64,000 nucleotides of DNA from Polaromonas sp. OV174 (GTDB lineage: Bacteria; Pseudomonadota; Gammaproteobacteria; Burkholderiales; Burkholderiaceae_C). Shown here in pieces: positions 12,985-47,090 of the stretch (position 1 is its first letter; each line of letters starts with the position of its first letter). The position numbers were made by a program, and so were the translations under genes. The notes under the pieces were generated by a model. It was not told where the DNA came from. It saw only the letters and a list, made by a program, of their open reading frames with translations, and searched no databases. The stretch spans positions 248,001-312,000 of the forward strand of contig NZ_FOKZ01000001.1 of the NCBI RefSeq assembly GCF_900112285.1, written 5' to 3'.

Positions 12985-13983
12985 ATGTCCCTGCCATTTT
13001 TGACCCAAGCCCGTGCCCCGCTCACCTGTGAGATAGCCGCCGTCAATGAATACGGTGAGTCGCTCCAGATATCCATCCCGGCCGAACGCGCGCTCACGGT
13101 CTATGTCGACAAGCGTGAGCTGGTCACGCTGATGACCCTGGGCGCACACCCCGAGCTGCTGGTGCTGGGTTATCTGCGCAACCAGCGCCTGGTCAAAGAG
13201 GTGGGCGACATCGAATCCATCACGGTGGACTGGGAGGTAGGCGCTGCCGCCGTCAAGACCCGTCACGGCATTGAAGACATCGAGGAAAAAACCGCCAAAC
13301 GCGTGGTCACCACCGGCTGCGGGCAGGGCAGTGTGTTTGGCGGCCTGATGGACGAGGTGGACCAGATTGTTCTGCCGGCAGATGCCCACATCACGCAGGG
13401 CCAGCTCTATGGGCTGGTCAACACCATACGGCTCAAGGAAACCACCTACAAGTCTGCCGGCTCGGTACACGCCTGTGCGCTGTTTGTCATGACAGCTGAA
13501 GAGCCTGAGATGCTGTTGTTTGTGGAAGACGTGGGACGCCACAACGCCATTGACACCATCGCTGGCTGGATGTGGATGAATATGGCCCCCACGCTCGGCA
13601 CTGACGTGTCCTCGCTGCCCCCCGAGGGGGCGCTGCGCCTGCGGCCCGGCAAAGCCGGCTCCGCGGCCCCGGCTGGTGAAGGGGAGCCCTCGTTGGGCGC
13701 CTCCTCCACCGACCTCGGCCTGGACGGCCTGGTGTTTTATACGACCGGCCGGCTGACCAGCGAGATGGTCATCAAGTCCGCCCAGATGGGCGTGCCCATT
13801 GTGGTGTCGCGCAGCGGCATCACGCAGATGGGGCATCAGGTTGCGCAAGCGGTGGGGCTGTGCGCCATTGGCCGGGCGACCAACAAGCGCTTTGTTTGCT
13901 ATACCCGGGCCGATCGCCTGCGGTTGCAGCCTGGCCTGGTGGTCAAACCTGACGTCGAGCGCAAGGCCGATCAGAGCGCCTGA
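12985..13983 (+). CDS. fdhD: Formate dehydrogenase accessory sulfurtransferase FdhD with a repeat-derived insertion
   Basis: FdhD transfers sulfur from the cysteine desulfurase to the molybdopterin cofactor, without which formate dehydrogenase is inactive. The family motifs are present: the TTGCGQGSVFG loop with C112 (E. coli FdhD has a CxxC here), HACALF, EDVGRHNAID, FYTTGRLTSEMV and the GRATNKRF segment. At 332 residues it is about 50 longer than E. coli FdhD (277). The excess lies at about residues 205-245, between the AIDTIAGWMW helix and FYTTGR, and is encoded by a REP-like repeat read in frame. The flanking catalytic parts look intact, so the protein may still fold with a surface loop. 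Confidence 0.92.
   Translation: MSLPFLTQARAPLTCEIAAVNEYGESLQISIPAERALTVYVDKRELVTLMTLGAHPELLVLGYLRNQRLVKEVGDIESITVDWEVGAAAVKTRHGIEDIEEKTAKRVVTTGCGQGSVFGGLMDEVDQIVLPADAHITQGQLYGLVNTIRLKETTYKSAGSVHACALFVMTAEEPEMLLFVEDVGRHNAIDTIAGWMWMNMAPTLGTDVSSLPPEGALRLRPGKAGSAAPAGEGEPSLGASSTDLGLDGLVFYTTGRLTSEMVIKSAQMGVPIVVSRSGITQMGHQVAQAVGLCAIGRATNKRFVCYTRADRLRLQPGLVVKPDVERKADQSA
13603..13715. repeat. REP-like repeat inserted in frame in fdhD
   Basis: This GC-rich segment begins GTGTCCTCGCTGCCCCCCGA, matching the repeat at about 786-850. It continues through a CTGCGGCCCGGCAAAGCCGG palindrome that is nearly the same as the copy at 40615-40640. It contributes about 38 codons of Gly/Ala/Pro-rich sequence to FdhD without a stop or frameshift. 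Confidence 0.7.
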
Positions 13984-40564: not shown

Positions 40565-40690
40565 CACCCCGTGGCTTTGCACACTTCGTGTCGTAGCCTC
40601 CCCTTCAAGGGGCGACACCTGCGGCCCGGCGAAGCCGGTTCCGCGGTGTCCGCTGGCCGGGTGTTGCGACTGAGGCAAAGCCTTGTCCCT
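40565..40690. repeat. REP-like repeat between rdgB and hemW
   Basis: The segment contains CTCCCCTTCAAGGGGCGACA and CTGCGGCCCGGCGAAGCCGG followed by TTCCGCGG. These closely match the second half of the insertion in fdhD (about 13641-13670). It fills most of the 158 bases between rdgB and hemW. Confidence 0.6.
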
Positions 40691-42663: not shown

Positions 42664-42905
42664 TTCTGCCTATCCATTTCTTGATGTCAGCACCAGCATC
42701 GACGATATCCACGCTGCGGCTGGCGCGCACCAGGGCGTCCCGGGCGCATCCCAAATCTGTTCATGGAATCATTTTCCATGAGCCACTGTACTCGCCACCT
42801 TTGAATAAAACCAGAGCTTCTGGCTGTCGTTCTGCGTGGCAGTAGCTGCTGACGATGCCGTGAAAATTCGAAGGCATTCACATCCGGAATTTAGTTCACT
42901 GACCT
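42664..42905. other. Gene-free stretch left of the first long repeat
   Basis: Frames here are short and lack family-like sequence or a convincing ribosome-binding site. A 64-codon minus-strand frame at 42687-42881 has an erratic, Arg-rich composition and is not called. With the repeat that follows and the open region to 43215, this makes about 550 bases without a supported gene. Confidence 0.5.
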
Positions 42906-43070
42906 GTTTGTTACCTCGAAATGACGATTATGGGAACTGGTCGGCCCCAGAAAAAAAAGCTAGTCTGCATGCAGGGCATTCGTCCCGTTTGATTTGAGTT
43001 GTCGACCTGTGCTCTTGCCGGTAGCTTGGCAAGGCAGGCCTATTTATGAGAGAACATAAATAGGTGACGC
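42906..43070. repeat. Long direct repeat, copy A (165 bp)
   Basis: It begins GTTTGTTACCTCGAAATGAC and ends with the perfect 10-bp inverted repeat CCTATTTATG-AGAGAA-CATAAATAGG (43039-43064) followed by TGACGC. A second copy at 46809-46972 is about 90% identical over its full length, in the same orientation. Both contain a 23-24 codon frame starting at the ATGA (GTGRPQKKK in copy A, GTCRPQRKR in copy B) that ends at the same TGA. Function is unknown; the palindrome could be an operator, a recombination site or a transcript hairpin. Confidence 0.85.
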
Positions 43071-43215
43071 TACCCGATTGAAGCTGGGGAGGTTTTCAGG
43101 GAAAGCGCTTACTCTGAGGCGACGTAAAACCTGCGAATTTGGCAAAATGGTCAGCCTACTTGGCTTGGACCTGCAATTTGAGCCGGGGCCGGCGGGTAGC
43201 GGAGACCAACACAAC

Positions 43216-46620: not shown

Positions 46621-46808
46621 AATCAGCCCCGTTTTGCATCGTGCAGACGCAGCGCGCCAATGCGGCTGCCGGCCTACACATTCTTCCATTGCTGACATCC
46701 AATTGCACTGCTGGCCAACTGAAAACCGCGTTTGACCGCCATTTTCCAGCGCTTTCAAACCGCCGCTAACACCAAGGGGCGATTGCTGCTGGCATCACAG
46801 GCTCGCCA

Positions 46809-46972
46809 GTTTGTTACCTCGAAATGATGATTCTGGGAACTTGTCGGCCCCAGAGAAAAAGGCTAGTCTGCATGCAGTGCATCTGGCCCGTTTGATTTGA
46901 GTTTTCGACTTGTGCTCTTGCCGGTAGCTGGCTGGGCAGGCCTATTTATGAGAGGACATAAATAGGTGACGC
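46809..46972. repeat. Long direct repeat, copy B (164 bp)
   Basis: About 90% identical to copy A at 42906-43070, same orientation. It keeps the inverted repeat CCTATTTATG-AGAGGA-CATAAATAGG followed by TGACGC, and the start GTTTGTTACCTCGAAATGAT. No supported gene follows it closely, unlike copy A. The hipBA pair and three unknown frames lie between the copies. The roughly 190 bases between the hipB control region and this copy hold nothing I recognise. Confidence 0.85.
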
Positions 46973-47090
46973 GATGCAATCAAAGGCTTTGAATCGGCAA
47001 CCATCCAGTCTGGCACCGCCCTGCGTCACGGGCAACCACAGGCATTCAGTCAACACCCGTCTTCACCAACTGTCGCGCAATACTGGACGA

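Follow-up and report, generated by a model that had tools for sequence, protein, structure and literature searches.

A dispersed GC-rich palindromic element is read in frame as a protein loop in FdhD and other proteins of Polaromonas sp. OV174

The fdhD gene of Polaromonas sp. OV174 contains, in frame, one copy of a GC-rich palindromic element that is dispersed through the genome. Many relatives have an FdhD without it, the element recurs at common sites in the genes of other species, and its copies within genes are biased towards particular reading frames. We consider it likely that the insert in fdhD is one copy of a selfish or passive hairpin-forming element, tolerated in the protein as a disordered linker. 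Coordinates refer to the window, the whole stretch of 64,000 nucleotides that was analysed, unless a locus is named.

The enlarged loop of FdhD

The fdhD gene (12985-13983, + strand), recognised from Pfam, from NCBIfam (below NCBIfam cut-offs) and from its fold, encodes 332 aa; E. coli FdhD has 277 aa. The Pfam family FdhD-NarQ matches the protein in two stretches, the best of which covers residues 33-200. Given that the alignment to the PDB homologue 2pw9 breaks at query residue 200 (chain residue 190) and picks up at query residue 250 (chain residue 196), the excess corresponds to residues 200-250, about 50 residues where 2pw9 has about five. The sequence-only reading had placed such an excess between AIDTIAGWMW and FYTTGR and had described the frame as preserved; both statements hold, and the 332-aa frame is open across the insert. 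The enlarged loop as a whole comprises residues 196-250 (55 aa; 13570-13734, + strand), against 12-15 aa in many element-free relatives, and the bulk of the extra stretch is a 91-bp copy of the element. A repeat of about 38 codons had been proposed here at 13603-13715. The repeat is real and in frame, but its bounds shift: the element starts 17 bases further upstream, spans 13586-13676 (+ strand) and encodes residues 201-231, and the sequence past about 13677 is the tail of the loop, except for a short TGAAGRG-like end motif common to other copies.

Structure prediction, proposed earlier as a check, describes the insert as disordered. In an AlphaFold2 model based on 56 aligned relatives (mean pLDDT 81), residues 201-240 have block-mean pLDDT values of 44-53 and almost no secondary structure, and this stretch sits between a helix (185-199) and a strand (249-253). 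Foldseek searches with the model ranked 4pde and 2pw9 first, but the rmsd is large (15 A) and leaves it uncertain how the parts of the model are placed relative to one another. The element probably lengthens the loop that connects the helix (to about residue 199) with the strand (from about residue 249); the insert most likely serves no purpose in its own right, forming an apparently floppy or disordered loop. It is improbable that the loop has been recruited for a function such as docking of a partner. Many species do keep the insert, and one relative (G019) has four in-frame HMM matches in its FdhD; however, carrier loops range from 38 to 158 aa, two frames are used after hairpin 2, and close relatives lack the insert.

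A GC-rich element with conserved hairpins

The element was described by an HMM built from 30 copies of the OV174 genome. The palindromic fdhD copy is near-full (HMM positions 2-93, 59.8 bits) and is read as APTL..LPPEGALRLRPGKAGSAAPAG. It includes an exact match to hairpin 2 (GCTGCCCCCCGAGGGGGC; 13614-13631, + strand), read as xLPPEG, and an exact pattern match to the core of hairpin 3 (13639-13666, + strand). Near-full copies measure 90-95 bp and have a GC content of 78.5%. Many copies are preceded by ATG or ATGG and followed by a TGAAGAG-like sequence, and neighbouring in-gene copies are spaced by 99, 102 or 138 nt; given these flanking motifs and spacings, read off the copy listings, a complete unit may measure about 102 nt.

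Two further occurrences in the window had been reported at 786-850 and 40565-40690. Copies do exist at both places, although they are partial and their limits differ. One (796-854, - strand; HMM positions 3-62) lies between two ABC transporter genes, and the other (40578-40655, + strand; HMM positions 12-92) was read as intergenic. Within 735-860, the LPPEG frame of the former is open into the frame of the ABC transporter ATPase, and this copy may therefore form an N-terminal extension.

The hairpin cores are conserved among copies, and two variants of hairpin 3 (JS666-type and G004-type) carry apparently matching changes on both arms, as seen by inspection without statistics. These features would be expected if the DNA or RNA hairpins were the useful part, for instance through mRNA stability or supercoiling, with the peptide as a by-product. 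We think this unlikely: the insert folds no better than its shuffles (RNA z -1.28; DNA z -0.42), and a role in DNA does not predict the frame bias described below. An Rfam search over 13400-13900 gave three matches up to an E value of 1, none at its gathering score.

Copy number and distribution

The nucleotide match between the fdhD repeat and other copies is far above chance, as had been supposed. At least 44 blastn matches were found in the OV174 genome among the 40 of 143 first-look candidates that were scored. A 28-base core pattern gave 50 matches and the hairpin 2 pattern 70, against none for the reversed-pattern controls, which were zero throughout, including in the genus and family scans. 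The HMM matched 93 times in the window and 60 fetched stretches (489,205 bases; 59 of these 60 stretches had been picked for holding copies) and six times in five further stretches, giving 99 copies, and the true number may exceed 99 because just 40 of the 143 candidates were scored.

Counting OV174 itself, the core pattern (up to two mismatches) occurs in 20 of 23 genomes of the genus; it was absent from one sample of 14 genomes from other families. Within the family it was found in 72 of 150 genomes, again with OV174 included. By blastn, at least 14 of 200 genomes of the order (OV174 counted, up to four candidates scored per genome) have a match, some of them in other families. Polaromonas sp. 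JS666 has at least 43 element matches, with 40 of 159 candidates scored, and the named FdhD matches among the best 80 of 523 are mostly from Polaromonas.

Copies within genes

Open reading frames that span copies were checked against Pfam and NCBIfam, and 21 of the 99 copies were accepted as lying within genes and in frame, in 18 genes and at 19 sites. Single copies are found in FdhD, XdhA, a YheT-like protein, GlnE, an M55 peptidase, and FemAB-like, ComEC and GlcD-like proteins, as well as in a MoCF/CinA-like protein, a fatty acid hydroxylase, an NdvB/GH94-like protein, an M16 peptidase, a methylmalonyl-CoA mutase with a MeaB domain, an AMP-binding enzyme and an alpha/beta hydrolase. PriA has copies at two sites, an HmuV-like protein has two copies at one site, and an MlaE protein has two half copies at one site. 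Strong profile support, across the copy or on both sides of it, exists for 11 of the 19 sites (FdhD, XdhA, PriA sites 1 and 2, HmuV, FemAB, ComEC, GlcD, MoCF, MeaB and the AMP-binding enzyme). The remaining eight have weaker support, from a one-sided profile match in an open frame or from coding scores, and the MlaE and YheT-like sites are the weakest. A coding model scored 17 of the accepted copies and placed only eight of them above threshold on both sides.

Alignments to PDB structures skip the inserted stretches in PriA, XdhA and HmuV; the HmuV insert separates the LSGGE segment from the LLLDEP segment, two parts that a short link joins in 4g1u. We suspect that copies within genes persist where the frame is kept and the loop was already variable. 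The copies in the YheT-like (L067) and GlnE (L073) genes show no difference, either within the element or in the 12 bases beyond it, a degree of identity that suggests recent copying of the element between the two genes. GlnE also has a second, shorter LPPEG fragment that is absent from the HMM list.

Other copies lie at the margins of genes. Eight copies with coding sequence on both flanks but no common open frame were considered as candidates for disrupted genes, and from the positions of their ORF ends they were judged to lie between genes or at gene ends. Only one flank is coding for 50 of 93 copies. At another locus (L111, 2973-3033), where one ORF meets the next, the C terminus of the first is encoded by a half copy, once more in the LPPEG frame (..WSMAPTLVASRTALPPEGAAPPKGGLSAGRQHD). 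In 30 loci of JS666, judged by eye and ignoring antisense-looking ORFs, no copy was recognised within a conserved gene.

A bias in reading frame

With hairpin 2 as the anchor, each of the 21 accepted copies reads either xLPPEG (forward) or APSGGS (reverse), which are two of the six frames. For 19 sites and six equally likely frames, the chance of this outcome is (1/3)^19 = 9e-10, for a rule that was noticed and tested on the same copies. Over the four mostly open frames it is about 2e-6, or about 5e-4 with the 11 strong sites, again calculated on the copies of the discovery. Among relatives-only genes, the two further cases that could be judged, of three, fit the rule.

The six frames were compared in 60 copies that retain the 5' half and hairpin 2 and were not scored as in-gene. 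The two used frames encode peptides with mean charges of 0.1 and 0.2 and have stops in one and three copies; the two unused but mostly open frames have charges of +3.4 and +2.2 and stops in two and four copies, and stops interrupt the remaining two frames in 28 and 23 copies. Given that the unused open frames are cationic and the used ones near-neutral, these values suggest that selection went beyond stops to the peptide itself. Surviving copies would be those read in one of the two frames whose product is a low-complexity linker of nearly neutral charge, LPPEG from one strand and APSGGS from the other, and selection against cationic peptides, or those rich in Cys or aromatic residues, may have produced the bias. 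All six frames are open in 12 of 29 copies, against 22.7% of dinucleotide shuffles, a small excess. Peptide properties in fixed frames over whole copies have no clear pattern because internal indels shift the frames, whereas the analysis anchored on hairpin 2 is clear.

The constraint appears to be local. In one well-supported group of FdhD proteins, the sequence 3' of hairpin 2 is read as LRLRPGEAG or as AAPAARQSQIRG, and this use of two frames by sister proteins implies that the peptide there is hardly constrained. More speculatively, and with less than even confidence, we propose that the element is coding-compatible, with one nearly stop-free, near-neutral linker frame on each strand, and that these frames let it enter, multiply within and depart from the same tolerant loops of core enzymes again and again, in Polaromonas and in neighbouring genera. 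In that case the element could continually supply free-living bacteria with new protein loops.

Empty sites and recurrence in relatives

FdhD loci were taken from 30 of 43 matching genomes, with the addition of the best 80 of 523 matches. The 110 loci reduce to 89 distinct sequences, and to 88 after removal of one (G020) that has no downstream part. The element is present in 43 of the 88, all at one position (40 by an HMM match in the loop, three by motif), and is not recognisable in 45, of which 42 have none and three have a short, stub-like loop. The FdhD of JS666 has no insert. The segment is thus not universal among relatives, and the proposal that a mostly intergenic repeat has become a protein loop of FdhD is borne out. 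Excision and frame variants had been suggested as a check. Two loci (L164 and L160) have 17-aa loops in which a stub, APTL or ATL, is all that is left, as though part of the element had been deleted, and sister proteins differ in frame as described above.

That the fdhD insert is an artefact of assembly is very improbable indeed. Repeats can mislead assemblers, and the fdhD of G020 (L135; G020:C26:7500-12000) is broken at the element and runs into other sequence, with its C-terminal part on another contig, through either rearrangement or misassembly. However, inserts at the same place occur in named assemblies, including the non-MAG assembly of Polaromonas glacialis R3-9 (L151) and that of P. 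eurypsychrophila (L139).

Other proteins have comparable occupied and empty sites. The main XdhA match was examined in 18 genomes of the genus, one of which gave no motif-based reading; the element is present in three of the 17 readable genomes; in 12 the site is short and empty (for example WTVEDL..DGTLHPAQ), and in two it is longer but without a recognisable element. The XdhA of one relative (G014) has four consecutive HMM matches. Among 22 PriA loci, the element occupies site 1 in seven of 20 readable cases (one at 7.7 bits only) and site 2 in six of 18, and both orientations are present at site 2. In three other genomes the FHWTN site of FemAB-like proteins is likewise occupied, by a single copy or by two.

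How the element came to be distributed among FdhD proteins may be considered in two ways, one being recurrent insertion into this loop. A single ancient insertion, inherited, repeatedly lost and replaced, through gene conversion, by copies from elsewhere in the genome, is a real possibility, although we would not put it at even odds. Every insert has the same starting point (..MN(x)APTL), the stubs look partly deleted, a well-supported group of five FdhDs has the left part of the insert in common and differs in the right part, and counts of changes do not distinguish gain from loss. Conversely, a single clade of carriers is rejected (AU p 1e-36), and the pattern needs at least 15-16 changes on a quick tree in which 48 of 85 inner branches are open. 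Given that both orientations occur at PriA site 2, separate events took place at that site at least. No linked transposase was found and no insertion event was seen; the element is presumably mobile, or once was, and the loop presumably passive.

Relation to known repeat families

By description rather than by sequence, the element can probably be equated with the Betaproteobacterial repeat element (BRE) of the literature. According to the account in PMC3110155 (BMC Genomics 2011, 12:207), BREs are GC-rich, about 90 bp long with partial copies of 40-60 bp, and form tandem arrays; one sentence states that some copies lie entirely within coding sequences. The size agrees with our near-full copies and many partial HMM matches, and tandem copies and copies within coding sequences are common to both. 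JS666 has dozens by either account, 29 reported there and at least 43 here, by different criteria. The GC content given for Bordetella is 69%, lower than the value found here. The BRE section of that paper gives no gene list, frames, empty sites or proteins for the in-gene copies. The open-licence literature searched contained no gene list, empty sites, repeated use of loops or rule of one frame per orientation for this element. Thus the BRE-type family and its copies in coding sequences have been known since 2011, and the detailed analysis of in-gene copies is probably new within that literature.

In behaviour, the element resembles the Rickettsia palindromic elements (RPE), described in PMC10969869 as short dispersed palindromes of about 150 bp that are in frame in many unrelated genes. 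RPEs belong to obligate intracellular alphaproteobacteria, whereas the element of about 91 bp studied here occurs in free-living betaproteobacteria. In this betaproteobacterial genus, 18 genes of one genome contain the element and sister species supply natural empty sites, so the conversion of selfish DNA into protein can be traced at individual sites, and enzymes that are easy to handle, FdhD among them, allow it to be tested.

The label 'REP-like', given in the sequence-only reading, is apt for a palindromic, high-copy repeat but loose otherwise. REPs of the RAYT system are 20-40 bp long in the account of PMC3733652, and the unit here is about 91-102 bp. The 32 loci that were read around Y1_Tnp genes of the genus yielded one HMM match to the element (two of the loci, L061 and L121, are the same gene), and the one Y1_Tnp gene of OV174 has no adjoining element, which argues against mobilisation of the REP/RAYT kind. 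What that reading missed is the spread over 18 genes, the use of the same sites in other species, the rule of one frame per orientation, and the probable membership in a published family.

The window also contains a repeat that is unrelated by sequence to the GC-rich element. At 42903-43083 and 46806-46985, 3.9 kb apart, a 124-nt direct repeat (90% identical) is followed by a second repeated stretch with an inverted repeat (CCTATTTATG..CATAAATAGG).
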